Source: Spirosoma foliorum (GTDB lineage: Bacteria; Bacteroidota; Bacteroidia; Cytophagales; Spirosomataceae). From it: 64,000 bases of DNA. A program made the position numbers and the translations under genes. Below, piece by piece: positions 251 through 57,899 of the stretch. Positions within the stretch are counted from its first letter, which is position 1. The number at the start of each line of letters is the position of its first letter. The notes under the pieces were generated by a model. That model was given only the letters and a program-made list of their open reading frames with translations, was not told the origin of the DNA and ran no database searches. Location: contig NZ_CP059732.1 in assembly GCF_014117325.1 (NCBI RefSeq), positions 6,151,001 through 6,215,000 on the forward strand, in the 5' to 3' direction.

Positions 251-365
251 TGTCGGTTACTTATAACCGACACGTGAGGTTTCTGGAACGCCAGCCCGGT
301 CAAAACCTCGTGAGCACCTATAGGTTTTAAGAAACCTCAGAGTGTCAGCTATAAGTAGCTGACAC
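251..365. repeat. Composite hairpin array (copy A)
   Basis: Three palindromic units in a row. First comes a 9-bp stem with loop CTTA (251-272). Then a long inverted repeat TGAGGTTTCT / AGAAACCTCA (275-284 with 330-339), whose right side contains its own hairpin GGTTT-TAAG-AAACC. Last is a 10-bp stem GTGTCAGCTA with loop TAAG (342-365). The same order of elements recurs at 10461-10567. It fills the gap between the SusD-like gene and the lyase and ends 20 bp before the lyase start, so it could act as terminator or 5' leader structure. Confidence 0.75.
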
Positions 366-385
366 CACCAAACTCCATTAACTCA

Positions 386-2344
386 ATGATAAGCTCCCGC
401 ATACATATCATTCTGATACTCCTTTTCGCTTCATCCATCACTCACGCCCAGCGGAAAGAACGCCATATTCTCAGTCGTTTTTCGGAAGCGGATGTAGCCA
501 GTTCGTTGATTCCTCGGGCAGACTGGAAGCCGTTTCCACAGACAGCGGCTGAGTGGCAGACCCGCTTACCGGACTCACTTCGGCAACAGCTTATTAAGAA
601 AGGTGAAAACTGGTTGGGGAAAGACTGGCCCGCAATTTCGGCCTCACTCCTGCTCACCTCCACGCGTACCGGCGACCGTACGGAGTACTCTAATTTTCAG
701 GCTAAACGGCGGGCACATTTAATGAGTCTGGTATGGGCTGAAGCCATTGAGGGAAAAGGGCGTTTTGCTGAAGACATCATGAATGGCGTCTGGTCAACCT
801 GCGAAGAAACTTATTGGGGTATTCCGGTGCATCTGTATTTGCAGAAAGCCAGGTTAGGATTGCCCGACGTCGAAGAACCCACCGTCGATCTGGTTTCAGC
901 GGAAACGGCCGTTATGCTATCGCTGACCGATTATCTGGTTGGCCCTGTGCTTGAGAGTAAGTCCAAATTGTTGCGTCCCCGAATCCAGTATGAACTGAAT
1001 CGCCGGGTGCTGAAGCCTATGGAAACCGCCCGATATGGCTACCTGGGCAATGTGGATGATAAGCCCGTTAACAACTGGAATCCCTGGATCATCTCGAACT
1101 GGCAGTTGACCAATCTGCTGATGGAGAAAGATGAAGCACGTCGGGTCAAAAACTTGCACTATTCCATGCTGTTGCTCGATAACTACCTCAACAGCCTGGG
1201 CGATGATGGTGGTTGCGACGAAGGCCCATCTTACTGGTTTGTGGCGGGTGGAAGCACATTCGATGCGTTGGAAGTCCTGAATCAGGCTACAAAAGGCAAA
1301 GTAAATGTGTATCAGGAACCGCTGATCAGAAATATGGCGGCCTACATTTACAAGACGCACATCGCGGGTAACTACTTCATCAACACCGCCGACGCCAGTC
1401 CCACCATCCAGGTCGACGCCCCTTTTTTATATCGGATTGGAAAAGCGGTCAATGACCCGCAACTGGTGCAACTGGCAACCTGGTTCTATTCACGTTCCAG
1501 CCAACCGATTTCGGGCGAAACCAATACCAAACAACGGGCGCTGTTTGACTGGTTGAGTCTGCCCGAAATGGCAAAAGTTGTTACATCCTCCAGCAATCTG
1601 AAAGCACCTGATCTGTCTAGCGTCTGGTTTGCTGATATTCAGCTGATGGGTGCCCGCACCAGCAACGACCGTTTGTATGTAGCCTCGCACGGGGGACATA
1701 ACAACGAAAGCCACAACCATAACGATGTTGGCGATTTCATTATCTACGCGAATAGTACACCCGTCATTATTGATGCGGGTTCTGGAACGTACACGGCCAA
1801 AACGTTCTCGGCCGAGCGCTACAATTCCTGGTACAACACCTCGCCTTACCACAATCTGCCAACCATCAACGGTATTCCACAGTCAGCCGGGCGGAAGTTT
1901 GAAGCTACGAACGTGGTCTATACGCATCCGGCCAACACAACCGATTTACGGATGGATATCGAAACCGCCTACCCGCCAACGACAACTCTCAAAAAATGGA
2001 CGCGGACAATAAAAACCACACCCAAAAATACGATTGAAATTGGGGACGAGTACACGGCGACTGCGCCCTTAAAAAGCCTCTCGCAAACGTTCATGACCAT
2101 CTGCACCGTCAATACCAGTCAACCCGGCAAACTTATTTTCGAGCAGGTTGGCGGCAAAAAAGTGAGTCTGGAGTATGATGCCACCAAATGGAAAGTCTCG
2201 GTTGAAAAGTTGCCACTAGATCAGTCCGACGACAAAATATTCCGGCAGAAATGGCAGGTGCAGGATATCTTCCGAATACTCCTGACCAACCAATCGCTGG
2301 CAGCCCAGGACAAATTCAGATATGTAGTATCAACAGTAAATTAA
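386..2344 (+). CDS. Heparinase II/III-family polysaccharide lyase, secreted
   Basis: A 652-residue protein with an N-terminal signal peptide (hydrophobic ILILLFASS, cleavage after THA-Q). The first ~370 residues have the character of an alpha/alpha toroid with NNWNPW and DDGGCDEGPSYW motifs. The C-terminal half has the beta-sandwich signature NNESHNHNDVGDF (His443, His445, Asp447), followed by DAGSGTY. That arrangement is typical of heparinase II/III-like lyases, which cleave uronic-acid glycans (heparinoids, alginate-like or oligo-uronides) by beta-elimination. It follows a SusD-like gene and precedes a hexuronate-type carrier, which fits uronate release. Exact substrate cannot be read from the sequence. 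Length and motif order look intact. Confidence 0.9.
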   Translation: MISSRIHIILILLFASSITHAQRKERHILSRFSEADVASSLIPRADWKPFPQTAAEWQTRLPDSLRQQLIKKGENWLGKDWPAISASLLLTSTRTGDRTEYSNFQAKRRAHLMSLVWAEAIEGKGRFAEDIMNGVWSTCEETYWGIPVHLYLQKARLGLPDVEEPTVDLVSAETAVMLSLTDYLVGPVLESKSKLLRPRIQYELNRRVLKPMETARYGYLGNVDDKPVNNWNPWIISNWQLTNLLMEKDEARRVKNLHYSMLLLDNYLNSLGDDGGCDEGPSYWFVAGGSTFDALEVLNQATKGKVNVYQEPLIRNMAAYIYKTHIAGNYFINTADASPTIQVDAPFLYRIGKAVNDPQLVQLATWFYSRSSQPISGETNTKQRALFDWLSLPEMAKVVTSSSNLKAPDLSSVWFADIQLMGARTSNDRLYVASHGGHNNESHNHNDVGDFIIYANSTPVIIDAGSGTYTAKTFSAERYNSWYNTSPYHNLPTINGIPQSAGRKFEATNVVYTHPANTTDLRMDIETAYPPTTTLKKWTRTIKTTPKNTIEIGDEYTATAPLKSLSQTFMTICTVNTSQPGKLIFEQVGGKKVSLEYDATKWKVSVEKLPLDQSDDKIFRQKWQVQDIFRILLTNQSLAAQDKFRYVVSTVN

Positions 2345-2373
2345 CGAGAACGGCGACAGCAAATCCTCCAGCG

Positions 2374-2498
2374 ATTGGCCCATAGGGCCTACACAGCGTA
2401 GCGTTGGTAGCCAACAGGTCTTGTACCTAACGGCACAGGATTCCATTCTGTTGACGCTACCTACCAACGCCTTTGGCTGTAAAGGCCCTATAGGCCAA
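2374..2498. repeat. Imperfect long inverted repeat between lyase and PQQ dehydrogenase
   Basis: The left arm reads TTGGCCCATAGGGCCT then GCGTTGGTAG; the right arm reads CTACCAACGC then AGGCCCTATAGGCCAA. The loop contains a second pair, CAACAG / CTGTTG. It occupies most of the 207-bp gap between codirectional genes and probably ends the upstream transcript, although no clean T-run follows. Confidence 0.65.
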
Positions 2499-2551
2499 AA
2501 TTAATCCCGACTTTACATTAAAAAAGCTGCTATTCTGTACTTTCCCATGTC

Positions 2552-4663
2552 ATGAAATACCTGCTGATCATAGCGTCGTTGCTCCTGATTGCCTTCCAGT
2601 TTGGGCACATTCCTGTCTTACCCGACACGAACTGGAGCGAATACAATGGCGACGGTGCCCGAAGCCATTTCTCGCCATTGACACAAATAAATCCGGAGAA
2701 TGTACAACAACTAAAAGTAGCCTGGACCTATTCATCGGGCGGAGCCGATACAACGGGCAACCGAACCCAGATGCAATGCAACCCTATTGTTGTTGATGGC
2801 GTTTTGTACGGCGTTTCAGCTAATACACAGACATTTGCGTTGAATGCCGCAACGGGTCAGGAAATCTGGCGAACGAAATTGACCGACAACGGCGGCACCA
2901 CCAGTCGGGGCGTAACGTACTGGGCGGATGGCTCGGATAAACGCATTTTGTTTGGTGCAGGCAAATGGCTTTACGCCTTCGAGGCAAAGACGGGTAAACC
3001 CGTTGACAGCTTTGGCCAACGTGGACGTATTGACCTGAAAGAAGGCATTGAACGACCCGGTGCCGATAATTACGTTCAGCCCAACACGCCCAACACCATT
3101 TACAAAAACCTGGTCATTGTGGGTGTGCGCGTCTCCGAGGGCGAAACGGCCTTGCTGGGAGATGTGCGTGCTTATGATGTTCGAACGGGCCAAAAGGTCT
3201 GGACATTTCACACCATCCCGCAACCCGGCGAATTTGGCTACGACACTTGGGCACCTGCCAATCCGCGCCAACGACTGGGCGGTGCCAATGCCTGGGCGGG
3301 TATGGCCATCGACCGGGATCGAGGTATTGTGTACATCCCAACGGGTTCCGCAGCTTATGATTTTTACGGCGGCAATCGAAAAGGCAATAACCTTTACGCC
3401 AATTGTTTGCTGGCATTAGATGCAACAACAGGCAAACGGCTCTGGCATTTTCAGTTTGTGCATCACGACATCTGGGATCGTGACCCACCCGCACCCCCAA
3501 GTTTGTTAACCGTTGTTCAAGCCGGAACCGACGGTCGGCCCCGAAAAATTGATGCCGTCGCACAAACGACCAAACAGGGCCACGTTTTCGTTTTTGATCG
3601 GGTTACGGGGAAGCCGTTGTTTCCGGTCATCGAGAAAGCGTTTCCAGCCGCTGCCGTTTCGGGAGAATACCCCAGCCGAACGCAACCTATCCCAACGAAA
3701 CCCGCGCCGTTTACGAAGCAATCATTCACCGAAAAAGACATTAACCCCTGGGCATCGAACCGGGATGAAATCGTAGCCACATTGCGAAAAGCTCATACGG
3801 GCAGTCCATATATTCCACTGACGTCAACAATGACCATCTTCTTCCCCGGTACCGATGGCGGTGCGCAATGGGGCGGCTCGGCGGTCGATCCAGAGGGAGT
3901 GATCTATATACCTGCCAAGCAAAATCCCTGCTTTTCCTCATTGGTGCTGAAAGAGCAACCTACCGGTAATGCGTCGGTAACGGGGGCACAATTGTACAGC
4001 TTGCGTTGTGCCGCTTGCCACGGTGCCGACCGACGGGGAAATCACGATGGTTCATATCCTTCGTTATTGGGACTGGAAGCACGACTGTCCTCCGATGCCG
4101 TTCATCAGGTGTTGTTGAAAGGTCGGGGGATGATGCCTTCTTTTTCACATCTTCCCGAAGCCGAACGCAAAGCTATCGTCGATTTTCTGTTTAACAAAGG
4201 CAATACGACGCAAACCGTGAGCGCTCAGAAAGCGGGGCTGCCTTATCAGCATACGGGCTACAATCGCTGGTACGACAGCAAGGGTTATCCCGTGAGCGCA
4301 CCGCCCTGGGGAACTTTAACAGCCATCGATCTTAATACGGGCGAGCATCGTTGGCAGGTACCGTTGGGTGAGTATAAAGAACTCACCGCGAGAGGTATTG
4401 CACCAACCGGAACCGATAACTATGGCGGACCGCTTGTAACGGGCAGCAATCTGTTGTTTATTGCCGCCAGTAAAGACGAGCAGCTACGGGCATTTGACAA
4501 AAAAACGGGTAAAATTCTGTGGCAGGTTCAACTGCCAGCCGCAGGATATGCATCGCCCAGTACCTATTCGGTAGGAGGCAAACAGTATGTGGTCATTGCT
4601 TGTGGTGGCGGAAAATTGAACACAAAATCAGGAGATAAGTACGTCGCTTTTGCTTTAGAGTAG
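2552..4663 (+). CDS. PQQ-dependent dehydrogenase with inserted cytochrome c domain
   Basis: A 703-residue quinoprotein oxidising an alcohol or sugar in the periplasm. After a hydrophobic N-terminus (YLLIIASLLLIAF) come propeller motifs typical of PQQ dehydrogenases: repeated W-like A-x-D-x-x-T-G-x-x-x-W blocks such as ALNAATGQEIW, AYDVRTGQKVW, ALDATTGKRLW and AFDKKTGKILW. At residues 486-490 there is a CAACH haem c site, followed by a candidate Met ligand in GRGMMPSF. The cytochrome domain (about 475-555) lies inside the propeller: typical propeller blades continue after it, including the GTDNYGGPLVT strand. This should allow direct electron transfer from PQQ to haem. Substrate is uncertain; the neighbours suggest a sugar or aldehyde from uronate or aromatic breakdown. 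Confidence 0.9.
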   Translation: MKYLLIIASLLLIAFQFGHIPVLPDTNWSEYNGDGARSHFSPLTQINPENVQQLKVAWTYSSGGADTTGNRTQMQCNPIVVDGVLYGVSANTQTFALNAATGQEIWRTKLTDNGGTTSRGVTYWADGSDKRILFGAGKWLYAFEAKTGKPVDSFGQRGRIDLKEGIERPGADNYVQPNTPNTIYKNLVIVGVRVSEGETALLGDVRAYDVRTGQKVWTFHTIPQPGEFGYDTWAPANPRQRLGGANAWAGMAIDRDRGIVYIPTGSAAYDFYGGNRKGNNLYANCLLALDATTGKRLWHFQFVHHDIWDRDPPAPPSLLTVVQAGTDGRPRKIDAVAQTTKQGHVFVFDRVTGKPLFPVIEKAFPAAAVSGEYPSRTQPIPTKPAPFTKQSFTEKDINPWASNRDEIVATLRKAHTGSPYIPLTSTMTIFFPGTDGGAQWGGSAVDPEGVIYIPAKQNPCFSSLVLKEQPTGNASVTGAQLYSLRCAACHGADRRGNHDGSYPSLLGLEARLSSDAVHQVLLKGRGMMPSFSHLPEAERKAIVDFLFNKGNTTQTVSAQKAGLPYQHTGYNRWYDSKGYPVSAPPWGTLTAIDLNTGEHRWQVPLGEYKELTARGIAPTGTDNYGGPLVTGSNLLFIAASKDEQLRAFDKKTGKILWQVQLPAAGYASPSTYSVGGKQYVVIACGGGKLNTKSGDKYVAFALE

Positions 4664-4672
4664 GTATCTGGG

Positions 4673-4749
4673 TTTACGGTTTGTGGTTTACGGTTGGCTG
4701 ACGCGTCAGCAAGACCTGCGTCAGCCAACCGTAAACCACAAACCGTAAA
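4673..4749. repeat. Long perfect inverted repeat after the PQQ dehydrogenase
   Basis: Arms TTTACGGTTTGTGGTTTACG.. and ..CGTAAACCACAAACCGTAAA pair over about 32 bp, with a short loop around AAGACC. Each arm is itself built from the word TTTACGG/TTTGTGG repeated. It fills the 101-bp gap before the next codirectional gene and ends 15 bp ahead of that start codon. It is probably a terminator or mRNA-stabilising hairpin. Confidence 0.75.
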
Positions 4750-4764
4750 TCGAATACCCCAAAT

Positions 4765-5802
4765 ATGTCTTCCGTAATTAACGTTGGTTTGGTTGGTTTT
4801 GGCTTGTCTGGGCGGTATTTCCATACGCCGTTTCTGTCTGTCAATCCGAAGTTTCATATAAAGAAAATCGCCAGTAGCCGTCCTGATGCGGTTCGTGAGT
4901 TTGATCCGTCGATTGAGTGGGTTGCTACACCGGAAGAGCTGTTCGCCGATCCGGCTATCGATCTCGTTTTCATTTGTTCGCCCAACGAAACACATGTCGA
5001 CTATGCGCGAAAGGCACTCGAACAAGGCAAAAACGTCGTGGTTGAAAAACCATTTGCGCTTTCGGAAGCCGAAGCCATTGAGTTATTGGCGTTAGCCAAA
5101 CAGAAGGGCAAAATCGCTACCGCTTACCAAAATCGGCGGTGGGATTCTGACTTTTTAACGATCAAACGTTTACTAGCCGAAGATGCCTTAGGGGAACTCG
5201 TTGATTATGAATGCCTGTATGATCGCTACTCGCCTGTTCCACCGAATTCCCAAAGTTGGAAAGAACAGGCCGGTCCAGGGCGGGGCAATCTGTACAACTT
5301 AGGGCCCCACTTGCTCGATCAGGCGCTGAACCTGTTTGGCAAACCCGACACCGTACAGGCTAGCATCCGAATCCTCCGTCCGAACAGCCATGTGCCTGAC
5401 TATTTCGACATAAAACTGGGCTATCCCGATAAGATCGTTCGGCTTGAATCCAATCTGCTGGTGTATCATAATCAGCTACGATTTAGTCTGCATGGCACCA
5501 AAGGCTCGTTTATCAAAGGCGGCTTAGATGTGCAGGAGGAACGCCAACGGCTCAACGAATTACCAAATCGGCCCGATTGGGGGGTTGAACCAGAGGATCG
5601 TTGGGGAACGCTTTACAGAGATGGGAAAGCCGAAGTCATTGAAAGTGAGCCCGGCAATTACACCCCTTTTTACGACAACCTCTACGATGCGATTGTGAAC
5701 GGAGCCGAACCCGCTATCACCCCCGCCGATATTCAACAACTTGCCCGTGTCATCGACCTAGCGCTGGAAAGTAGCCAAACTCAACGTACCATCGCTTATT
5801 AA
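4765..5802 (+). CDS. Gfo/Idh/MocA-family NAD(P)-dependent oxidoreductase
   Basis: A 345-residue cytoplasmic protein without a signal peptide. The N-terminal Rossmann fold starts GLVGFGLSGRYFHTPFL. The family hallmark EKPFALS is at about residues 94-100, with the NETHVDYA helix before it. The C-terminal alpha/beta domain has GRGNLYNLGPHLLDQ (catalytic His region). It most resembles the YdgJ-type subgroup that oxidises or reduces sugars and inositol-like polyols with NAD(P). It overlaps no neighbour, but the MFS carrier starts 2 bp after its stop, so the two are almost certainly cotranscribed: import followed by oxidation or reduction of the imported sugar acid. Confidence 0.9.
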   Translation: MSSVINVGLVGFGLSGRYFHTPFLSVNPKFHIKKIASSRPDAVREFDPSIEWVATPEELFADPAIDLVFICSPNETHVDYARKALEQGKNVVVEKPFALSEAEAIELLALAKQKGKIATAYQNRRWDSDFLTIKRLLAEDALGELVDYECLYDRYSPVPPNSQSWKEQAGPGRGNLYNLGPHLLDQALNLFGKPDTVQASIRILRPNSHVPDYFDIKLGYPDKIVRLESNLLVYHNQLRFSLHGTKGSFIKGGLDVQEERQRLNELPNRPDWGVEPEDRWGTLYRDGKAEVIESEPGNYTPFYDNLYDAIVNGAEPAITPADIQQLARVIDLALESSQTQRTIAY

Positions 5803-5804
5803 TC

Positions 5805-7076
5805 ATGACCACCTACCGCTGGCGAATTGTAGTGCTTCTGTTTGTAGCTACGACTATAAACTATCTGGACCGACAGGTAATCAGCCTGCTCAAACCCACG
5901 TTAGAAACCGTTTTCAACTGGACCGAAACCGATTACAGCCATATCGTGATGGCGTTTCAGGCCGCTTATGCCTTTAGCTATGTTGTCTTTGGTCGATTGA
6001 TCGATACCATCGGCACCAAAATGGGCTATGCGATTGCCGTTTCGGTGTGGAGCATAGCCGCGATGATGCATGGGTTGGCAACCAGCACGTTCGGCTTTGG
6101 CGTTTACCGCGCTCTGCTGGGTTTAGGCGAAGGCGGAAACTTCCCGGCGGCCATTAAAACCGTAGCCGAGTGGTTTCCCCGAAAGGAACGGGCACTGGCA
6201 ACAGGTATCTTTAACTCCGGCACAAACATCGGTGCAGTGGTTGCGCCTATTCTAGTCCCCTGGGTATTGGGGGCTTATGGCTGGCAAATGGCGTTCGTGC
6301 TGACGGGACTGGTTGGGTTCATCTGGCTTGTTTTCTGGTGGATGAGCTACGAAAATCCGCAACGGCATAAAAAGCTATCCTCAGAAGAACTGGTTTATAT
6401 CACCAGCGATGCCGAAAGCACTACCGGCGAATCGATTCCGTGGCTGAATCTCCTTAAGTATCGGCAAACCTGGGCCTTCGTGCTGGGCAAACTATTCACC
6501 GACCCGGTCTGGTGGTTTTTCCTGTTCTGGCTACCTTCTTATTTTGCCTCCTCATTTAATCTTGACCTGAAAAAGCCCAGCTTACCGCTCATTTTCGTAT
6601 ACACAGCCGCTACGCTGGGTAGCGTGGGTGGTGGGTATTTATCCGGTTATTTCATCCGCCGGGGCTGGACGATCAACCGCTCCCGTAAAACGGCCATGCT
6701 GCTCTACGCGCTCTGCATTGTGCCCATTGTACTGACCCGTTACGCAACCTCTATCTGGGAAGTGGTTGGGTTGCTGAGTCTGGCCGTTGCTGCTCACCAA
6801 GCCTGGAGTGCCAACCTGTTTACGCTCGTGTCGGATATGTTTCCCAAGAATGCCGTTAGTTCGGTTGTTGGGCTAGGTGGCATGGCTGGTTCGCTGGGTG
6901 GACTCGCCTTCCCCATTGTGGTGGGTGCGTTGCTGGATACGTATAAAGCACAGGGCGATATTACCATCGGCTATAACTACCTGTTTTTGCTCTGCGGCAG
7001 CGCCTATATACTGGCCTGGTTATGTATCCACTTCTTTGCGCCTAAGTTGAAACCAGTTGAGTCGATAGAACGCTGA
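5805..7076 (+). CDS. MFS transporter, hexuronate/anion:cation symporter (ExuT-like) type
   Basis: A 423-residue integral membrane protein with about 12 hydrophobic segments. The N-terminus TTINYLDRQVISLLKPTLE and the RALLGLGEGGNFPAAIKTV motif in helix 4 are typical of the anion:cation symporter branch of the major facilitator superfamily. That branch includes hexuronate and other sugar-acid carriers. It lies in the inner membrane. The start is 2 bp after the upstream oxidoreductase, which supports one operon. A galacturonate, glucuronate or aldonate substrate fits the surrounding lyase, but aromatic acids are also carried by this branch. Its stop codon lies inside the left arm of the downstream inverted repeat. 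Confidence 0.88.
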   Translation: MTTYRWRIVVLLFVATTINYLDRQVISLLKPTLETVFNWTETDYSHIVMAFQAAYAFSYVVFGRLIDTIGTKMGYAIAVSVWSIAAMMHGLATSTFGFGVYRALLGLGEGGNFPAAIKTVAEWFPRKERALATGIFNSGTNIGAVVAPILVPWVLGAYGWQMAFVLTGLVGFIWLVFWWMSYENPQRHKKLSSEELVYITSDAESTTGESIPWLNLLKYRQTWAFVLGKLFTDPVWWFFLFWLPSYFASSFNLDLKKPSLPLIFVYTAATLGSVGGGYLSGYFIRRGWTINRSRKTAMLLYALCIVPIVLTRYATSIWEVVGLLSLAVAAHQAWSANLFTLVSDMFPKNAVSSVVGLGGMAGSLGGLAFPIVVGALLDTYKAQGDITIGYNYLFLLCGSAYILAWLCIHFFAPKLKPVESIER

Positions 7077-7144
7077 TTTTTATGATCTATATGATGGATT
7101 AAGATCATTTTTAACCATAGTAATCATAAAAATCAGCGTTCTAT
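7065..7144. repeat. Start-codon-abutting inverted repeat, family TAGAACGCTGATTTT (copy 1)
   Basis: Perfect 22-bp arms ATAGAACGCTGATTTTTATGAT (7065-7086) and their complement (7123-7144) enclose 36 bp that contain a further ATGAT/ATCAT pair. The left arm contains the stop codon of the carrier gene. The right arm ends exactly one base before the next ATG, leaving no room for a separate ribosome-binding site. A second copy lies at 11203-11323. Confidence 0.85.
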
Positions 7145-8674: not shown

Positions 8675-8694
8675 AATAGGTAATCAGTTTTTTC

Positions 8695-8767
8695 ATTCTC
8701 ACCGGGTTAAAACCCAGTGCAGTTCATTTATCCTATGTTTTGCACCGGATTTCAACCCGGTGAGAAT
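8695..8767. repeat. ACCGGGTT-family inverted repeat (copy 1)
   Basis: Arms ATTCTCACCGGGTTAAAACC.. (8695-8721) and ..GGTTTCAACCCGGTGAGAAT-like complement (8741-8767) match with three mismatches over 27 bp. Related copies are at 30832-30899 and 43303-43336. It fills the gap between the CoA ligase and the esterase. A GTG inside the right arm could extend the esterase frame, but is more likely fortuitous. Confidence 0.8.
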
Positions 8768-8792
8768 AAAGAAATCAACACGAATACTCAAC

Positions 8793-10433: not shown

Positions 10434-10460
10434 GGATCGAAAGTAGTGAGTGTCTGTGAA

Positions 10461-10567
10461 GGCAGGTTCTTAAACCTGCCTTAGTGAGGTTTCTCAAAAC
10501 CGAACGGTTCGTTCATACAATTCGGTTTTGAGAAACCTCATTAGGGTCAGATTTGAGAATCTGACCC
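10461..10567. repeat. Composite hairpin array (copy B), convergent-gene boundary
   Basis: Hairpin GGCAGGTT-CTTA-AACCTGCC (10461-10480). Then a perfect 20-bp inverted repeat starting TGAGGTTTCTC (10485-10504 with 10521-10540), whose arms each fold alone (GGTTT-CTCA-AAACC; GGTTT-TGAG-AAACC). Then GGGTCAGATT-TGAG-AATCTGACCC (10544-10567). It has the same layout as 251-365. It separates the convergent esterase and quinone reductase genes and overlaps the last codons of the latter. Confidence 0.85.
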
Positions 10568-11185
10568 CACGAGAACATCCGCAACAGCCTGACCCAAAAA
10601 CACTTTCTCCAAGTGCGCCCTGTACAAATCTTTGTCGCGGCTAATGTTAACGTTCTTTTCGACATCGTGAAAGTGAATGCTTTCCAGGGGCTGCACGCCC
10701 GTGAAGGCCATCATCCGGTGAAATCCAAACATCACGCCTTCATCGACGCTTTTTTGACCGAAAAACTCACCTGGTAAGGTAAAGGCTTCTTCGGGTGCAT
10801 TCCAGCTTGTCGTCAGCATATAGTGTCGACCGTGCAACGAGCCGCCTGTGCCGTAGTTGATAGCTGGATTTTTCCGCGAACGGCCATCGCTGGTATACAT
10901 ACCCTGCTGATGGCCAGCGGTGAAGACCCGATCAATGTATTCCTTCAATCGGTGTGGTAATTGAAACCACCAGATAGGCGTGTGGTAAATGATCACATCG
11001 GCCCATTTGTATTTTTCTACTTCGTCGGCTGGATCATAGTCGTCGTTAACGTGGGTTACCTGTACGGCAAACTCATCGGGGTGTTGCCGTAAAAAATCAA
11101 GTGTCCAGTTAGTCAGTGTTTCATTAAAAGCACCGCCCGAATGAGCGAATTTCTGCCCGCCGTTGATAACAAATATATTCTTCAT
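10547..11185 (-). CDS. mdaB: NAD(P)H-dependent quinone reductase, MdaB-like flavoprotein
   Basis: A 212-residue flavodoxin-fold oxidoreductase. The ATG at 11185 (MKNIFVINGGQKFAHSGG) is chosen because it begins at the first beta strand; an upstream in-frame start would lie in the repeat leader. The motifs YHTPIWWFQLPHRLKEYIDRVF and YGTGGSLHGRHYMLTTSWN match the MdaB/NAD(P)H dehydrogenase (quinone) family, which reduces quinones by two electrons using FAD. It is divergent from a LysR regulator, which may control it. The last seven residues (GSDSQI and neighbours) are encoded inside a repeat hairpin, so the C-terminal tail appears to have been supplied or replaced by the repeat. Confidence 0.85.
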   Translation of the reverse strand: MKNIFVINGGQKFAHSGGAFNETLTNWTLDFLRQHPDEFAVQVTHVNDDYDPADEVEKYKWADVIIYHTPIWWFQLPHRLKEYIDRVFTAGHQQGMYTSDGRSRKNPAINYGTGGSLHGRHYMLTTSWNAPEEAFTLPGEFFGQKSVDEGVMFGFHRMMAFTGVQPLESIHFHDVEKNVNISRDKDLYRAHLEKVFLGQAVADVLVGSDSQI

Positions 11186-11202
11186 GGATGTGTTCGATTT
11201 AA

Positions 11203-11323: not shown

Positions 11324-11342
11324 CTCGTCTTTTATTGTTATG

Positions 11343-12314: not shown

Positions 12315-12324
12315 GTTCCATGCC

Positions 12325-12413
12325 TTTTTTTGTCATTCCGACGTCAGGAGGAATCTCGAGTTTGACTAATACGCAACGTTGAGATTCCTCCTGACGTCGG
12401 AATGACAAAAAAA
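12325..12413. repeat. TGTCATTCCGAC-family hairpin (copy 1), bidirectional terminator position
   Basis: Perfect 33-bp arms: T7 then GTCATTCCGACGTCAGGAGG.. (12325-12357) and its complement ending A7 (12381-12413), with a 23-nt loop. It sits between two convergent genes, and the terminal T/A runs fit bidirectional rho-independent termination. Other copies are at 32877, 39267, 51048 and 58409. Confidence 0.9.
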
Positions 12414-12442
12414 GCCAAGTTTTTCATAAAAATCGAACTCCC

Positions 12443-28994: not shown

Positions 28995-28999
28995 CTCTA

Positions 29000-29110
29000 G
29001 CGCGAGCGTTTGCTCGTGCCGTTTCATATTGTCAGCATTCGCTGACCTTCCGGCTGGATATGCGCCAGTGAATACTGGCTAAATTAAACGGCATGAGCAA
29101 ATGCTCGCGC
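29000..29110. repeat. Composite hairpin array (copy C)
   Basis: Outer arms GCGCGAGCGTTTGCTCGTGC.. (29000-29024) and complement (29086-29110) differ at two wobble-compatible positions over 25 bp. Between them are two small hairpins with complementary loops: GTCAGC-ATTC-GCTGAC (29031-29046) and GCCAGT-GAAT-ACTGGC (29064-29079). It lies between two codirectional genes. Confidence 0.8.
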
Positions 29111-29210
29111 CAGTGTGCCACTTTACCTCACTCATTAATTACTTAGTAGTCATTAGAATACTCCCAAGCAGACTTTTTTAGGCAGACCGAACATAACGGC
29201 TAACCAACCT

Positions 29211-30831: not shown

Positions 30832-30899
30832 CTCGCCGGGTTAAAACCCGGCGCAAAAACACAGAATGGATGAACTACGCCGGGTTTTAACCCGGCGAG
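30832..30899. repeat. ACCGGGTT-family inverted repeat (copy 2), self-palindromic arms
   Basis: Perfect 22-bp arms beginning CTCGCCGGGTTAAAACCC (30832-30853) and complement (30878-30899). Each arm is also a palindrome (GCCGGGTT-AA-AACCCGGC), so it can fold as one long or two short hairpins. Right edge GGCGAGAATGA matches copy 1. Confidence 0.9.
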
Positions 30900-32876: not shown

Positions 32877-32965
32877 TTTTTTGTCATTCCGACCGTAGGG
32901 AGGAATCTTAAAGTCCCTTGATAGGAAGGTTTGAGATTCCTCCCTACGGTCGGAATGACAAAAAA
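32877..32965. repeat. TGTCATTCCGAC-family hairpin (copy 2)
   Basis: Perfect 32-bp arms: T6 GTCATTCCGACCGTAG.. (32877-32908) and complement ending A6 (32934-32965). The core is CCGTAGGG/CCCTACGG where copy 1 has CGTCAGG/CCTGACG. It lies between GH28 and pectinesterase. Confidence 0.9.
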
Positions 32966-39266: not shown

Positions 39267-39351
39267 TTTTTGTCATTCCGACGCCAGGAGGAATCTCAAC
39301 GTTGTGTATTGATCAAGCTTAAGATTCCTCCTGGCGTCGGAATGACAAAAA
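39267..39351. repeat. TGTCATTCCGAC-family hairpin (copy 3)
   Basis: Perfect 30-bp arms (39267-39296 and 39322-39351), T5 and A5 at the ends. The core is CGCCAGG/CCTGGCG. It lies downstream of the lipoprotein hydrolase and probably terminates it. Confidence 0.9.
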
Positions 39352-50872: not shown

Positions 50873-50895
50873 AAGAGGTTATAGTTTCTGGTTTG

Positions 50896-50903
50896 CAAAA
50901 CTA
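50896..50903 (-). promoter_or_regulatory. Putative -7 element for the mosaic protein
   Basis: TAGTTTTG on the minus strand, 24 bp ahead of the start codon, matches TAnnTTTG. No -33 TTTG at the usual spacing. Confidence 0.5.
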
Positions 50904-51047
50904 CGCCCCCCTTTTTGGCTCCATGTTACCAATACATTATGATATAAGACCACATGGATAACTATCGCATAATACAAAGGGCGCGGTTCACTAGTCAGTT
51001 AGTATTTTTCCTAAACCTGCGGTTAGCATATATAAAATTGATGATTA

Positions 51048-51133
51048 TTTTTTATCATTCCGACGCCAGGAGGAATCTCAACGTTTCTTAGTAACCAAGG
51101 TCAAGATTCCTCTTGACCTTGGAATGACAAAAA
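51048..51133. repeat. TGTCATTCCGAC-family hairpin (copy 4), degenerate right arm
   Basis: Left arm T6 ATCATTCCGACGCCAGG.. (one change in GTC); right arm AGATTCCTCTTGACCTTGG.. no longer matches in the core. Instead, the right arm pairs with the adjacent loop, CCAAGGTCAAGA-TTCC-TCTTGACCTTGG (51095-51122), a new 12-bp hairpin. Confidence 0.8.
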
Positions 51134-51134
51134 G

Positions 51135-51167
51135 AAAAAAATGAGACCAATGTTGGTCTCATTTTTT
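51135..51167. terminator. Terminator-like hairpin beside copy 4
   Basis: AAAAAATGAGACCAA-tg-TTGGTCTCATTTTTTT, with A and T runs on both sides. It lies between divergent genes, so it would not terminate either neighbour in the ordinary sense. Confidence 0.7.
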
Positions 51168-51631
51168 TGCACTCATTCTTAACCTAATCTACAATAAATT
51201 CTTCTAGCTATTTCTAAAAAAAATAGGAATTATAGTAAGTAAAATAATAAAATAGGAATTGATAAAAACAGAAATATAAATACCATAAATATAATTTTCC
51301 AGCGCCGTCGATACGTAATATATCGGCTATTACCAGCGACCAGATTCATTAATTCGTTTACCCAATGGCCAAACATTCGGCAACTAGTTTATCAGTGATG
51401 GCACAAAAGTAGGCAATGAATAAAAAGGGCAATATTATATAATCATTATCAGATACAATACACTGAAAATCAAATAATTACCATTAATACAACAACGATA
51501 AATATATAATCTCAGGAATAAATGCTCTGTTTAAAAGGGTTAAAGCAAAAACATTATCGCCAGTTTATGCACCGTATAATTTCATAATTTATTGGTGATA
51601 CTGACTTCTCATCTAGTTAATACTACCCTTC

Positions 51632-51639
51632 TACTTTTG
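51632..51639 (+). promoter_or_regulatory. Putative -7 element for the SusC gene
   Basis: TACTTTTG matches TAnnTTTG and is identical to the element at 38231. It would give a leader of about 130 nt before the SusC start. Confidence 0.4.
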
Positions 51640-51778
51640 CAACAGAATAGAAATACGCTGTAGCGTCAATCAGCTTTTTACCGAGTCAATTCTTCCAGAC
51701 AGCGAAGCTTATCTGCTGTATTACTGTGTCTTTTTTTGTGCTTACCATTTTCACTTTCTTACTAATTAATTCAATCTA

Positions 51779-54700
51779 ATGAAACAACGATTTACGCGAT
51801 CAACTTACCGATTGCTTTTCTATGGTCTATGGATCATGGGAACCCTCGCGAGTTATGGCGCTTATGCGCAAAGCAGGTCTGTTAAAGGGAAAGTAACGGA
51901 TGCCAAAGGCAGTGGATTGCCAGGTGTTAACGTGATTGTTAAAGGAACCAGCGCAGGTGCATCGACAGATGCCAACGGTGATTACTCACTCAATGTTTCC
52001 TCTGCCAATGCGGTCCTGACTTATTCGTTTATTGGGTTCGATCCGCAGGAAAAAACGGTGGGCAATCAATCGATCATCGATGTATCGCTGGTCGAAAATA
52101 CGGCGCAATTAAATGAAGTTATCGTAACGGCGCTGGGTATCAAAAAAGAAGCCCGAACCATTGGGTACACCGCACAGGAAATTGCTGGTGATCAGTTGGT
52201 GAAGGCTCGCGAACCAAACCCGATCAATTCATTGACGGGTAAAATTGCCGGTCTGACGGTGGCCTCAAGTGCCGAATTATTAGGTCGCCCGCAGTTGATT
52301 CTGCGCGGCAACAGTGATCTGCTTTTTGTCGTCGATGGTGTCCCTATTAACTCGGATACCTGGAACGTATCGGCCGATGATATTGAAACGTATACTGTTT
52401 TGAAAGGCCCCAACGCAGCGGCTCTGTATGGTTTCCGTGGGCAGAACGGGGCTATTCTGGTTACGACCAAAAAGGGTACTAAAGACAAGCGTAAGGTGTC
52501 GGTTGATTTCAACACCAGCACAATGTTCGAGCCTAGCTTTCTGGCTATTCCAGAGCGTCAGAGTGAGTATGGCTTCGGATCAAACTACCAGTATGCCTAT
52601 GCCAATAACCTATACGACGTAGGTAACCCAAACCGCCGGGCTAACATCTGGGGGCCTCGTTTTGAAGGACAACCTGTGCCACAATACGATAGCCCGGTCG
52701 ATGCAACAACGGGTGTTCGGCAAGGGACTCCCTGGGTTGCGCGTGGTGCCAACAACTTCCGCGATTTCATGCAGACGGGTATGTTATCGACCAACAACCT
52801 GGCCATTTCGTCGAGTGGAGAGAAGTACGATCTTCGGATGTCGATCTCGAATAACTACCAGAAAGGTATGGTGCCAAACACACGGTTGAACATCACCAAT
52901 TTCAACCTGAGTGCGGGTATCAACTTCACGGATCGCCTTAAATTCGATGGTGGTTTGAACATGAGCCTGCAAAACTCGCCGAACATTCCTCAGTCAAGCT
53001 CAGGCCCCGAAAGCGAAACCTATATTTTCCAGGTTTACGGATCAAGCAGCTGGTCGGTGAAGGACATGCGCGATTATTGGAAAGGCCCTCAGGGTGTGCC
53101 AGGCGTTCAGCAATATTATGCGGAATACGGCCGGGGTAACAACCCTTATTTTGTGGCTTATGAGTGGCTTTACGAACACCGCAAAACAGACGTTTACGGC
53201 TACGCCCGCTTAAACTATAAGATCAACGATTTCCTGAATTTATCGGCCCGTACGCAGGTTACGACCTGGAATCAGCTTCGTACGGAGAAAGTACCTTACT
53301 CGGCCATTACGTACAAAACGCCTGACCTTCGTCTGGGCGATTACCGCGAAGATCGCCGGAATCTGTTCGAGAATAACACCGACCTGTTGCTGAGCTTCAA
53401 CAAGAATGTCTCGAAAGATTTACACGTTAGCGCGGTACTTGGCGGTAACGCCCGGACGTTCAACTACAACTCAAGCTGGGCTACCACCGACTTCCTGATC
53501 GTGCCGGGTGTGTATGATTTCAGTAACTCAAAAAACCCGGTTCAGGCCTACAACTGGCGTTCGGATATGTCGGTATTGAGCGCTTACGCAACCACCGATT
53601 TAACGTATAAGAATTACCTGACGCTGGGTCTGACGGGGCGTTTCGATAAACTATCAACGCTGCCAGCCGCCAACCGGACAATCTTCTATCCATCGGCAGC
53701 TTTGAGTACGGTTATTACCGATTACGTACAATTGCCCCAGGCTATTTCCTTCCTCAAACTGCGTGGTTCGTATGCTGACGTGAAGGGTGGAAACACGATG
53801 TCGAGCATTGGCTCGGCTTACCAACAGGTAACGGGTAACTCAACTTCTGCGCTCCTTGGCTATGGCAACGAAGTGATGACCGCTTATGACGGTCCGAGCT
53901 ACATTAACCAAAACACGTATACGATCAGCAAGCCGTATAACAACCTGCCTTCTGCGAGTTATACCAGCAGTCTGGCCAACCCGAACTTACAGAGTTTCAA
54001 CGTAGAGTCGTATGAATTCGGTTTCGATGCCAAGTTCCTGCACAACCGATTGGGCCTGGATGTAACGCACTTTACTTCGATCAACGGTCCTCAGATTTTC
54101 CCGCTTCCTGTAGCGTCATCGTCGGGCTATAGCACCCAGGTTGCCAACGCCGTAACCACTCAGAAGCAAGGCTGGGAAGTATCGTTGACGGGATCGGTGC
54201 TCAAAAATCCAGCAGGTTTGAACTGGGACGTATTGGCGAACTGGTCTACCTACAAAGAGACGCTAAAGTCGATTTATGGCAATGAGCAAAGCATCTACCT
54301 GTCGGGACCAAACCATGTGTTCAACATTGGCGACCGGCTGGATGGTTACTACAGCTACAACTACCTGCGTAGCCCCGATGGCCAGATCATTCAGTCGTCA
54401 ACAGGTACGCCGTTGACTCGCCCTTCAGGAACGAATACCCTTCAGTTCATGGGCAATACCAACCCCGATTATGTTTGGGCATTGAACAACAAATTCTCGT
54501 ACAAGAACATCAACTTCAGCTTCCAGTTCGACGGTCGTGTGGGTGGTGTCATCCGCGATCAGGTATATGCTTACGCGCTGAATTCGGGTAACCAGGTTGA
54601 AACAGTTCAGGGTGATCTGGGTGCTGCTCGTCTGAAAGAATGGCAAAGCACAGCCCTGGGTACTAAATCGCCAACGGCGGCTTATGTAGGTCCTGGTGTG

Positions 54701-55108
54701 GTTATTGCCAACGGCGGCACGGCTAAGTTCGATGCCAACGGAAATATCAGCAACATGAGCGAATTGCAGTTTGCGCCGAATACGAAAGCCGTTACGGTGC
54801 AGACTTATGTTCAGGGTATTTACAACAGCGGTATCGAAGAGCCTTACATGGTGAGCAAAACCTATGGTAAACTGCGTGAGGTGATTCTGGGCTATACGTT
54901 CACAGGCGCTATGCTGCCCCGCTTTATCAAGTCGGCAAACATCTCGTTCGTAGGTCGTAACCTGTTGTACTTCGCTCAGCGCAAAGACTTCGACCTTGAC
55001 CAGTATGCACAGGGCTACAGTGCGTCGAGCCAAACTACGCTGAAAAACCCAAGCTTACAATCGGCCACCACGCGCCGGTTCGGTGTAAACATCAATCTGA
55101 CATTTTAA
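51779..55108 (+). CDS. SusC/RagA-family TonB-linked outer-membrane receptor
   Basis: A 1,109-residue outer-membrane porin. Signal to YGAYAQ. Residues ~35-110 form a CarboxypepD-reg-like domain (VKGKVTDAKGSGLPGVNVIV). The TonB-interacting stretch is LNEVIVTALGIKKEARTIGY, then the plug (~125-225: LRGNSDLLFVVDGVPI, GPNAAALYGFRGQNGAILVTTKKG). The 22-strand barrel closes with GRNLLYFAQRKDFDLDQY and terminal VNINLTF. No STN domain is present, so it should not signal to an anti-sigma factor. It imports oligosaccharides or other large nutrients with the SusD-like lipoprotein encoded just downstream. Confidence 0.95.
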   Translation: MKQRFTRSTYRLLFYGLWIMGTLASYGAYAQSRSVKGKVTDAKGSGLPGVNVIVKGTSAGASTDANGDYSLNVSSANAVLTYSFIGFDPQEKTVGNQSIIDVSLVENTAQLNEVIVTALGIKKEARTIGYTAQEIAGDQLVKAREPNPINSLTGKIAGLTVASSAELLGRPQLILRGNSDLLFVVDGVPINSDTWNVSADDIETYTVLKGPNAAALYGFRGQNGAILVTTKKGTKDKRKVSVDFNTSTMFEPSFLAIPERQSEYGFGSNYQYAYANNLYDVGNPNRRANIWGPRFEGQPVPQYDSPVDATTGVRQGTPWVARGANNFRDFMQTGMLSTNNLAISSSGEKYDLRMSISNNYQKGMVPNTRLNITNFNLSAGINFTDRLKFDGGLNMSLQNSPNIPQSSSGPESETYIFQVYGSSSWSVKDMRDYWKGPQGVPGVQQYYAEYGRGNNPYFVAYEWLYEHRKTDVYGYARLNYKINDFLNLSARTQVTTWNQLRTEKVPYSAITYKTPDLRLGDYREDRRNLFENNTDLLLSFNKNVSKDLHVSAVLGGNARTFNYNSSWATTDFLIVPGVYDFSNSKNPVQAYNWRSDMSVLSAYATTDLTYKNYLTLGLTGRFDKLSTLPAANRTIFYPSAALSTVITDYVQLPQAISFLKLRGSYADVKGGNTMSSIGSAYQQVTGNSTSALLGYGNEVMTAYDGPSYINQNTYTISKPYNNLPSASYTSSLANPNLQSFNVESYEFGFDAKFLHNRLGLDVTHFTSINGPQIFPLPVASSSGYSTQVANAVTTQKQGWEVSLTGSVLKNPAGLNWDVLANWSTYKETLKSIYGNEQSIYLSGPNHVFNIGDRLDGYYSYNYLRSPDGQIIQSSTGTPLTRPSGTNTLQFMGNTNPDYVWALNNKFSYKNINFSFQFDGRVGGVIRDQVYAYALNSGNQVETVQGDLGAARLKEWQSTALGTKSPTAAYVGPGVVIANGGTAKFDANGNISNMSELQFAPNTKAVTVQTYVQGIYNSGIEEPYMVSKTYGKLREVILGYTFTGAMLPRFIKSANISFVGRNLLYFAQRKDFDLDQYAQGYSASSQTTLKNPSLQSATTRRFGVNINLTF

Positions 55109-55198
55109 TGATGTAGGATGTATGATGTAGAATATATGATGTGCAGCCCACAACTAATAGGTCAGCATACATCATATATCCTACATCATACATCATCA
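55109..55198. repeat. GATGTATGATGTAG word-repeat inverted repeat between SusC and SusD genes
   Basis: Left arm GATGTATGATGTAG-aATATATGATGT, right arm ACATCATATATCCTACATCATACATC. It starts directly after the SusC stop codon. It is long enough to create an artificial N-terminal extension of the SusD frame. Confidence 0.75.
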
Positions 55199-55216
55199 CT
55201 CTTCTTCAAGAAAACG

Positions 55217-56812
55217 ATGAAAACAAGACTTCAATCTCTAGTTATAGCACTGACCCTCATCGTGGCAGTCAGTGCCTGCAAATCCTTTGACCAGCTGTTG
55301 CCGAACCCCAACGTAGCGGGTGAAGACAAAGCGGTTCCCCCTTCGTTGATTTTGCCTCAGATACAGTTCGATATGTACAACATCGGCGATGGCGGACCAT
55401 TCAGCCAGGTACACCGTTGGAACCAGTTCTCAATTTCCAATAACCTGTATTATGGTGGTCAGAACCAATATAACTGGACCAACACGACTACCTTATACGG
55501 CGTCCTGAAGAACGTCAACCAGATGGATGTCCAGGCCGTCAAATCGTTGGGAACAGCAGCGAATGCTTATTCAGCTTTAGCCAAATTTTTTCGGGCTTAT
55601 GTATTTGTGTGGCAGGCTAACCGGGTAGGCGATACACCCGCTTCGCAGGCTGGACAGGGCCTGACCGACCTGGACCCTACTTATGATACCCAGAAGGCGG
55701 TTTATGCCCGAAGCCTGGCCATGTTGGATACGGCGAATACGGTGCTAAGCACGCTGGCAGGCTCTACGGCATTACCGGCGTCAATCACTGGCGATAACTA
55801 TTACGGCAACGACCTCACCAAGTGGCGTAAAGCAATTAACACGTTCAAACTTCGGGTGTTGATTAGTCTCAGCAAGCGGGCTACCGATAATGCAGACCTG
55901 AACATTCCAGCTCAGTTTGCGGCTATCGTGAACAACCCAACGAAGTACCCGATCATGACCAGCAATGCCGACAACCTGAATTTTGTGTTCAACTCGGCCT
56001 ACAACACTTATCCGCACACACCGAACGATGCCAATAACCAGTATCAGTTCGAAGGTGCGCCTTATCTGAGTATCACAACCGCCACGCAGGACCCACGTAC
56101 GTTTGTGTTTGCAACGCCCGCACCCGCACAAATTACCTCGGGCAAGAACGTAAGCGATTTCACGGCTTATGTAGGCGCCGATATCTCGAAAGCCATTGGT
56201 GATTTGTATACCGAAGGAGCCAGCGCTGGCCCGACGGGCAAGTATTCGTATACAAACGATATACGCTACTACGGATCAGTGGCTGGGCCAGAGCCGTATA
56301 TCATTATGGGTTACTCGGAAATGAACTTCAACATTGCCGAAGCCATTAACCGGGGTTGGGTATCGGGTGCATCGGCGGAGAGCTATTACCTGAAAGGCAT
56401 CAACGCATCGCTATCGTTCTATGGTCTGACCGAAGGACAAACGTACACCATTGGCGATCAGGGTGGCAAAATACTGGGCACAACAACCATTTCGATCAGC
56501 AGCTTCCTGTCGAACGCGGGTGTAGCCTACAAGGGTGATAATGCCGATGGGCTAGAGCAGATTCTGAACCAGAAGTACGTAGCCTTCCACCAGAATTCAG
56601 GTTATGAAGCCTTCTACAACTGGCGTCGGACGGGCTTGCCTAAATCATTCGTAGCAACGGGTGGTGGCATTAGCTCAAACGGCAAAATCCCACGTCGGTG
56701 GCAGTATCCAGTCGATGAACAGACCTACAATACAGCCAATTATAAGGCCGCTGTGATGAGCCAGTTCAATGGTACCGACGATTTGAATATGGATACTTGG
56801 TTAACGAAGTAA
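55217..56812 (+). CDS. SusD-like (SusD/RagB or SusD_2 group) outer-membrane lipoprotein
   Basis: A 531-residue lipoprotein. ATG 55217 gives a proper lipobox (LTLIVAVSAC); the frame is open upstream only through an inverted repeat. The TPR-like helices are typical (AYSALAKFFRAYVFVWQANRVGDTPAS, ITGDNYYGNDLTKWRKAINTFKLRVL, in part), with the EAFYNWRRTGLP and IPRRWQYPVDEQ closing blocks. The pattern matches the SusD_2 group, which lacks the NPGW end. It pairs with the SusC upstream. No glycoside hydrolase or lyase is adjacent, so the ligand may be a peptide or oligosaccharide rather than a long glycan. Confidence 0.92.
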   Translation: MKTRLQSLVIALTLIVAVSACKSFDQLLPNPNVAGEDKAVPPSLILPQIQFDMYNIGDGGPFSQVHRWNQFSISNNLYYGGQNQYNWTNTTTLYGVLKNVNQMDVQAVKSLGTAANAYSALAKFFRAYVFVWQANRVGDTPASQAGQGLTDLDPTYDTQKAVYARSLAMLDTANTVLSTLAGSTALPASITGDNYYGNDLTKWRKAINTFKLRVLISLSKRATDNADLNIPAQFAAIVNNPTKYPIMTSNADNLNFVFNSAYNTYPHTPNDANNQYQFEGAPYLSITTATQDPRTFVFATPAPAQITSGKNVSDFTAYVGADISKAIGDLYTEGASAGPTGKYSYTNDIRYYGSVAGPEPYIIMGYSEMNFNIAEAINRGWVSGASAESYYLKGINASLSFYGLTEGQTYTIGDQGGKILGTTTISISSFLSNAGVAYKGDNADGLEQILNQKYVAFHQNSGYEAFYNWRRTGLPKSFVATGGGISSNGKIPRRWQYPVDEQTYNTANYKAAVMSQFNGTDDLNMDTWLTK

Positions 56813-56831
56813 GTTTTACAATGCAGCTCCC

Positions 56832-56866
56832 AACCTATAAGGTCTCGAAGACCTTATAGGTTTTTT
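56832..56866 (+). terminator. Rho-independent terminator after the SusD gene
   Basis: AACCTATAAGGTCT-CGA-AGACCTTATAGGTT, 14-bp perfect stem, then a T run. It ends 15 bp before the phosphatase start codon, so some read-through into that gene is possible. Confidence 0.85.
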
Positions 56867-56880
56867 ACAATCACATTCTC

Positions 56881-57708
56881 ATGAAAAAACTCACTCTTCT
56901 TCTCTCAATATTCGTTACGTCTGTCTCTTTCGGGCAGACTAACGATACGCTGGTGTATAACTCAAGACGGGCCGTTACCCTCGAAGGGGCCAGCAATTTT
57001 CGTGACCTCGGCGGCTATCCAACGCAGGATGGTCATCATGTAAAATGGGGACACATCTACCGTTCTGCCGATATCGGTAAACTAACCGATGCCGATCTAC
57101 AGGTCTTAAGTGCACGTCACATTGCCACCGTCTGCGATTTACGCGGCCCCGACGAAATCAAAACTAGTCCTGACCGGCTACCCGCTGGAGCCAACTGGTA
57201 TAACATGCCTGCTGGTAGCGAAAACACCCGTGCCACATCGGCCGCGTTGATGGGTGCCAAGCCTGCCAACCGCGATTCCATGATGATTTCCTTTTATGGC
57301 CGCACCGACCATCTGAAAGCCAAATACAAACCCATGTTCGACCAGTTACTGGCTCTCGATAATGACAAAGCGTTGTTGTTTCACTGCACCGCTGGTAAGG
57401 ATCGGACGGGTATTGGCGCGGCACTAATTCTATCGGCGCTGGGCGTTGACCGGAGCATTATTCTGAAAGATTACGCAGCTACCAATGAGTATTGGAAAGG
57501 CGGTCAGGCTCAGGCAATTCAGTCGATGATTAAGCAGGGTATGGATGAGAAAACGGTAAAAAGCATGTTAGCGGCTAATCCCGTTTATCTCCAAAGTGCT
57601 TTCGACGCGATTGATCGGCAATATGGTTCGATGGACAAGTTTCTGGCTCAGGCGATGGAATTAACGCCGGCAAAACTGGCGCAATTACGAACGAAGTACG
57701 TCCAGTAA
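56881..57708 (+). CDS. Exported tyrosine/serine protein phosphatase (Y_phosphatase3 type)
   Basis: A 275-residue protein with a signal peptide (LSIFVTSVSFGQ). NFRDLGGYPTQDGHHVKWGHIYRS and DLRGPDEI are the opening blocks of this atypical dual-specificity phosphatase family, and HCTAGKDRTG provides the CX5R loop with nucleophile Cys169 and Arg175. Such proteins dephosphorylate phosphotyrosine or small phosphorylated compounds; here activity would be periplasmic. It follows the SusC/SusD pair on the same strand after a terminator, so association with that system is only suggestive. Confidence 0.9.
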   Translation: MKKLTLLLSIFVTSVSFGQTNDTLVYNSRRAVTLEGASNFRDLGGYPTQDGHHVKWGHIYRSADIGKLTDADLQVLSARHIATVCDLRGPDEIKTSPDRLPAGANWYNMPAGSENTRATSAALMGAKPANRDSMMISFYGRTDHLKAKYKPMFDQLLALDNDKALLFHCTAGKDRTGIGAALILSALGVDRSIILKDYAATNEYWKGGQAQAIQSMIKQGMDEKTVKSMLAANPVYLQSAFDAIDRQYGSMDKFLAQAMELTPAKLAQLRTKYVQ

Positions 57709-57728
57709 CAGGGGGTTGCCTTAATGAC

Positions 57729-57774
57729 AAAACAGCGCGGGACGTACAACGATTTGTACGCTCCGCGCTGTTTT
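57729..57774 (+). terminator. Long bulged terminator hairpin after the phosphatase
   Basis: AAAACAGCGCGG and CGTACAA on the left, TTGTACG and CCGCGCTGTTTT on the right, loop CGAT, with small bulges. It closes with a T4 run. Confidence 0.8.
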
Positions 57775-57790
57775 ATGTGGCTATCTGGTT

Positions 57791-57899
57791 GAGCGTAGTC
57801 TAAGACTACGCTCAGGTGTTATCCGGTCTTTGACCGGAATAAAAGCAAGATAAAAACCGGTCAAAGACCGGATAACACACCGACGTAGTAAACACTACG
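57791..57899. repeat. Composite hairpin array (copy D), CGTAGT/ACTACG type
   Basis: GAGCGTAGTC-TAA-GACTACGCTC (57791-57813). Then perfect 22-bp arms GTGTTATCCGGTCTTTGACC.. (57816-57837 with 57857-57878), each containing its own palindrome CCGGTC-nnn-GACCGG. Then CGTAGT-AAAC-ACTACG (57884-57899). It lies between convergent genes and ends 18 bp from the stop of the small secreted protein. Confidence 0.85.

Follow-up and report, generated by a model that had tools for sequence, protein, structure and literature searches.

The window analysed here, a stretch of 64,000 nucleotides from Spirosoma foliorum (positions 6,151,001-6,215,000 of one contig of 8.85 Mb), contains four arrays of small hairpins (A to D), which are very probably non-autonomous repetitive extragenic palindrome (REP) elements of the BIME/REPIN type, built as symmetric tetramers of two REP hairpins and their inverted relatives and most likely spread on single-stranded DNA by a REP-associated tyrosine transposase (RAYT/TnpAREP, an HuH-tyrosine enzyme of the Y1 kind); that the arrays move is what we infer. 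An earlier note on this DNA, whose coordinates for the four arrays agree with the window sequence, knew no named element like them, yet they can be assigned to the REP/BIME-type repeats that flank RAYT genes. One protein of the window was compared with named genomes, and its closest relatives there are from Spirosoma species, with 81-83% identity. REPs as such are already known, and what is unusual here is a two-level build in which one hairpin pair is usually mismatched. The arrays and their parts are as follows, none being assigned to a strand; outer hairpins are typed by the fourth base of the outer core stem, which is G or A.

246..369, no strand: array A, family 1 (the A/B family), covariance-model match E 6.6e-16; GTG foot, G-type outer hairpin 251-272, inner arms 275-284 and 330-339, A-type outer hairpin 342-365, CAC end
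285..300, no strand: 16-nt GC-rich insert GGAACGCCAGCCCGGT on the loop side of the left inner hairpin of array A
10455..10571, no strand: array B, family 1, covariance-model match E 2.8e-21; outer hairpins 10459-10482 and 10544-10567, inner arms within 10485-10540
28999..29111, no strand: array D, family 2, the same family as the arrays flanking the RAYT gene at G000:C1:8617246-8618033; long outer arms GCGCGAG..TTTGCTCGTGCC and their inverse, two unlike inner hairpins with loops ATTC and GAAT
57789..57902, no strand: array C, family 3, with further places at about 0.341, 1.133 and 4.126 Mb; outer hairpins GAGCGTAGT..ACTACGCTC and CGTAGT..ACTACG, inner arms TATCCGGTC..GACCGGATA

Repeat families and copy number

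In the window genome the four arrays represent three repeat families, A and B forming the first, D the second and C the third; A and B have TGAGGTTTCT/AGAAACCTCA in common, just as the earlier note claimed. A pattern for the A/B inner pair found 8 exact inverted pairs genome-wide, each on both strands, and the 16-nt A/B half-unit, allowing up to 2 mismatches, gave 168 genome matches against 16 for a reversed control. A covariance model (R1) was built from 24 full A/B arrays, which were picked for a recognisable inner pair, the conservation of that pair partly reflecting this choice. Its genome search returned 145 strand-wise matches which, because the element is symmetric, amount to at least 74 distinct places at E<=0.01 and 68 at E<=1e-8; the figure of 74 is a lower bound, 150 of 2509 candidates having been scored. 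For D, an exact two-arm pattern proved too strict (0 matches) and a half-unit pattern was used instead, matching 83 times in the genome against 0 in the control, at 55 places, and among these 83 half-units there are 28 head-to-head pairs, none in the opposite order and 27 unpaired. Family C occupies only about 4 places (outer hairpin, up to 3 mismatches). The short palindromes of A/B and D are thus present in high copy and arranged as inverted doublets, as in REP/BIME (REPIN) elements, and the absence of further genomic copies, which the earlier note had named as grounds for giving up its idea, is not what the genome holds.

Two-tier architecture

All four arrays fold more stably than every one of 200 dinucleotide shuffles, with z-scores of -6.65 for A, -11.0 for B, -8.59 for D (the array at 29000) and -13.86 for C (the array at 57790). 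The plan common to all families is hairpin 1, hairpin 2, spacer, inverted hairpin 2 and inverted hairpin 1. Each A/B half consists of GTG, an outer hairpin (8-bp core stem with a CTTA-like loop), a short link and AGGTTT-CTCA-AAACC, the other half being its inverse, whereas D swaps the roles, its long outer arms being the pair that matches and zips, with two small hairpins between them. The earlier note had proposed a three-unit layout of short hairpin, long inverted repeat and short hairpin; as RNA, A folds into one long hairpin and not three units. The ATTC and GAAT loops that had been placed in C are those of the inner hairpins of D, the loops of C being TAA and AAAC.

The stems are maintained in spite of sequence change. 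Over 24 A/B arrays, 97.7% of stem cells are paired compared to 87.4% after shuffling, double changes occupy 92 cells compared to 28.8, and only 31-49% are paired when the partners are slid, showing that the stem changes of A/B are compensatory. With DNA energies, the outer hairpins of A/B are predicted to be separate in 53 of the 74 arrays and their arms to pair together in 13, the corresponding numbers with RNA energies being 37 and 30. As for D, the inner hairpins are by eye unlike in 8 of the 11 listed arrays, and DNA folds of 10 arrays gave two separate inner hairpins in 5 (the window copy, both copies flanking the RAYT gene, L255 and L263). As modelled by these folds, A/B and about half of the folded D arrays have one matched hairpin pair that zips into a long stem and one unlike pair that is predicted to form two separate hairpins. 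At the ends of the A/B arrays (n=148), GTGG is found 83 times, GTGA 49, GTGC 4, GTGT 4 and other sequences 8 times, GTG itself being part of the model; D arrays begin with CTGGCGCG, without GTGG.

The insert GGAACGCCAGCCCGGT of array A recurs in nearly identical form, at the same point of the array, in the copy at L223. More generally, individual REP hairpins in each of the three families can carry a GC-rich insert of about 15-23 nt (window 285-300, L223, L194, L198, L111 and L190).

Transposase genes enclosed by arrays

A search of 13 genomes of the genus with a local RAYT led to a RAYT gene in the congener G011 (locus L108, gene at 1462-1998), which lies between two full A/B arrays at 1250-1369 and 2020-2139, both in the same orientation, so that the A/B family has in G011 the repeat-flanked RAYT typical of REP/BIME systems. 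Next to the related RAYTs of G009, G020 and G032, one flank gives a strong array match and the other a weak one; both flanks match weakly in G006, and in G012, whose contig breaks off within the gene, a match is present on a single flank. The G011, G009 and G006 proteins, the three that were scanned, pass both NCBIfam NF047646 "REP-associated tyrosine transposase" (105.9, 96.5 and 88.7 bits; cut-off 80) and Pfam Y1_Tnp (27.2, 25.3 and 24.3; cut-off 23). By eye, the G011 protein carries the motifs NHIH and YIHNNP, with WE instead of WQ, and that of G009 carries YMHNNP. Long perfect palindromes with arms of 25-26 bp and REP-type loops also adjoin the RAYT at L111 1404-1457 (G009) and L112 1244-1299 (G006).

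Across 36 genomes of the genus, a close A/B RAYT (66-100% identity to the G011 query) was found in 6, and arrays at E<=1e-8 were found in 17 when at most 105 candidates were scored per genome; all 6 RAYT genomes are among these 17 (one-sided Fisher 0.0064). More distant RAYTs (28-39% identity) occur in several genomes of the genus. The window genome is one of the 36, and the same query found no close A/B RAYT in it. The NUDIX gene that adjoins the RAYT locus is present in 36 of 36 genomes, and 30 of these loci were examined: a 30 bp gap to the next gene, with no array inside, in G007 and G010; one hairpin in G028, G041 and G004; two hairpins in G034; and an array plus one hairpin in G031, with flanks resembling those of G004. 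At the NUDIX locus of the window genome there is no RAYT, the small NUDIX-adjacent gene (a 142-aa ORF, or open reading frame, in G009) stops early as read from the sequence, and the further neighbour was not found within 1.5 kb, that neighbour being missing in 8 of the 30 loci, one of which is cut by a contig end. It is likely that the A/B RAYT was lost from the window genome by rearrangement of its usual locus; the gene would then once have been there rather than never present, and the A/B copies would now be orphaned unless another RAYT acts on them.

The D family has its transposase gene in the window genome itself, where two D arrays (8,617,246-8,617,340 and 8,617,939-8,618,033) enclose a RAYT gene, albeit one that is frame-disrupted and split over two frames. 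Its pieces show, by eye, the motifs NHLH, WQ and YIHNNP and are either below the Pfam Y1_Tnp cut-off or unmatched.

Other RAYTs of the window genome, found with Y1_Tnp, were considered as partners of A/B and rejected, as L006, L007, L008 and L010 carry other palindromes; R1 had no match at E<=1 in L006, L007, L107 (the L008 gene) or L115 (the L010 gene). The RAYT genes of L006 and L007 are each accompanied on either side by inverted palindrome pairs of their own, at 1349-1420 and 2083-2141 of L006 and at 1354-1428 and 2070-2150 of L007, and therefore several RAYT/REP systems coexist in this genome. Another inverted REP-like family (CACCGGGTTAAAACCCGG type) lies in the window at 8688-8774 and 30832-30899, and a copy 85-87% alike adjoins the L008 RAYT. 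Four short IS200-like genes (L001-L004) have no evident palindrome of the array type in their surroundings. A dispersed inverted repeat, TTTTTGTCATTCCGAC..GGAGGAATCT, was also seen in the window at 12321-12417, 32877-32965, 39267-39351, 51049-51133 and 58405-58494.

Heterodimeric outer hairpins and a possible mechanism

In the window genome, 63 of the 74 A/B arrays could be typed, 51 as G/A, 12 as A/A and none as G/G; these 51 heterodimers compare with a shuffled mean of 30.6 and a maximum of 47 in 10,000 shuffles. Strict parsing, which leaves out 22 of the 74 arrays (lenient typing leaves out 11), gives 40 heterodimers among 52, against a shuffled mean of 24.9 and maximum of 36. The excess is repeated in 60 arrays from seven congeners, which are the best-scoring listed matches and not a random sample: with 7 of the 60 left out, the 53 typed arrays are 43 G/A, 10 A/A and no G/G (shuffled mean 25.8, maximum 37). 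Altogether G/G is absent from 116 typed arrays, 18 of 134 being untyped. Such an excess is not imposed by the model, because R1 scores the two outer helices independently. Mean outer-stem similarity is below shuffled in a sample of 32 arrays (5.69 vs 6.02 of 8). In some A/A arrays, B included, the two stems are unlike at a different position, and a subgroup of 5 A/A arrays is homotypic with GTCAGTTT on both sides. Along the chromosome no orientation bias of the G/A arrays was seen (27 G-left, 24 A-left).

Inverted REP dimers that fold apart or together, and heterodimers, are known, and the preference of REPs for heterodimers is described as having "no obvious explanation" (PMC3733652). IS200/IS605 and TnpAREP enzymes recognise a folded single strand and cut near a foot motif (PMC8266576; PMC6006769). 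By analogy with these enzymes and from the anatomy of the arrays, the RAYT would bind the array hairpins and cut near the GTG foot, with the separate, unlike hairpins as the most likely transposase-facing ends. More tentatively, and with a probability that we put well short of even, the two-tier array might be an asymmetric single-strand transposition unit, whose matched pair zips the ends together and whose unlike G-type and A-type hairpins tell a RAYT dimer which end is left and which is right, the part played by the left and right ends (LE/RE) in IS200/IS605.

Several points weigh against reading the arrays as REP elements spread by a RAYT, or against parts of that reading. Neither a transposition event nor binding by a RAYT has been observed, and neither A nor B yielded a clean empty site between conserved flanks; a search of named genomes by way of the tannase gene returned 20 loci, and in the 7 Spirosoma/Larkinella loci compared the alignment stops at the gene end. 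Among the 17 array-bearing genomes, 11 have no close A/B RAYT, the window genome included, and no RAYT was seen beside C-family arrays, whose loci were looked at only by reading them. In one motif the A/B RAYT disagrees with the published subclass nearest to it, having WE/WT and not WQ. As to the two tiers, 4 of the 10 folded D arrays zip throughout (L257, L258, L259 and L262) and L261 has a single inner hairpin, and identical 8-nt outer stems of A/B occur no less often than after shuffling (7 of 52 vs 5.3), the heterodimer excess therefore being confined to one stem position. Finally, the shuffles and the Fisher value ignore shared descent, and that of the copies makes the shuffles weaker as probabilities.

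Relation to known systems

The arrays resemble the REP doublets (BIME/REPIN) of RAYT/TnpAREP in being short extragenic palindromes in head-to-head inverted dimers with homo- and heterodimer variation, in GTG(G/A), in part as GTGG, where the A/B outer hairpins have their foot, and in the transposase gene lying between repeats; they differ in being two-tier tetramers with two different REP hairpins per half, one tier matched and the other usually unlike (PMC2817692; PMC3116915; PMC3733652). The nearest subclass, TnpAREP 2.6 of Bacteroidetes, has the motifs NH[LIV]H, WQ and YIH[QN]NP and is described as having "atypical secondary structures" beside the RAYT, weaker and without GT[AG]G. Shared with it are hosts in Bacteroidota, YIH[QN]NP in several of the RAYTs found here, and structures beside the gene with copies elsewhere. 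On the other hand, the A/B arrays are very stable and end in GTGG or GTGA in 132 of 148 cases, and the A/B RAYT, judged by eye, has WE/WT where the subclass has WQ and so lacks its full motif set; it is not counted among the members here (PMC6006769).

Two further systems invite comparison. TIRtrons/TIRYT, with double palindromic terminal inverted repeats (TIRs), also have a RAYT-like gene between long, partly self-complementary inverted repeats that are scattered over the genome. Here, by contrast, both in G011 and for D in the window genome, the gene has a symmetric unit to either side and the two units share one orientation (PMC3733652). Single GTG...CAC palindromes at the RAYT locus of the congeners G004 and G028 recall the double-foot REPs of subclass 2.4, although here they coexist with a tetrameric array and may be its reduced forms (PMC6006769). 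Within open-licence PMC papers, supplements excluded, no description of Spirosoma REPs or of a two-tier matched/mismatched array was found.

Alternative explanations

Could the arrays act mainly as RNA, as bidirectional terminators or stabilisers of mRNA 3' ends between genes? Their very stable folds fit this, and so does their placement: in a genome with an ORF density of about 87% (400-kb sample), 70 of the 74 A/B places are outside heuristic ORFs (overlap <=40 nt) and 4 overlap one, an extragenic position that is equally that of REP/BIME elements. However, the 70 are distributed over 49 tandem, 14 convergent and 7 divergent gaps, tandem placement thus being commoner than convergent, and TTTT lies within 12 nt of only 2 of 148 array ends, against a background of 4%. 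Such ends, without T-runs, make termination unlikely as the main role, and the earlier note was right to set these genome-wide recurring, hierarchical palindromes apart from intrinsic terminators. With transposase genes flanked by arrays and no Rfam match in a scan of the window, a mainly RNA-borne role appears improbable; a secondary RNA effect is possible.

The earlier note itself proposed a kissing (loop-loop) RNA or cruciform device, in which the complementary loops of the small hairpins pair. The loops CTTA and TAAG of A are indeed complementary, and loops of the CTTA kind prevail left and right once both are read in one direction (CTTA itself in 46 of 104). Yet exact complementarity of the outer loops occurs in 11 of the 43 A/B arrays with 4-nt loops on both sides, where the shuffled mean is 13.05 and 87% of shuffles reach as high, and in 4 of 26 in a smaller sample, and the loops of C do not follow it. 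Complementary loops are hence no shared design above chance pairing, and in that sense the complementarity does vanish in other copies, as the note had said would speak against it; in A it arises because the left and right hairpins are inverted relatives, whose loops tend to be complementary by descent. Loop-loop contacts are left unsupported, and we regard such a device as very improbable. No better placed is a miniature inverted-repeat transposable element of a DDE transposon with long terminal inverted repeats, which would suit the symmetric GTG...CAC termini, the length of about 110 bp and the many copies, and against which stand an associated transposase that is Y1/RAYT and not DDE, and inner and outer palindromes that each fold as hairpins.

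Significance

As probable REP elements of the BIME/REPIN type, these families provide a strong form of the REP heterodimer preference, repeated in congeners, and a window genome in which many arrays are found and a close RAYT is not. If the arrays were indeed asymmetric transposition units, this would explain the heterodimer preference better than an escape from hairpin nucleases would, since a long matched stem persists in many of these very arrays. The RAYT/array pairs in Bacteroidota make the recognition rules directly assayable.

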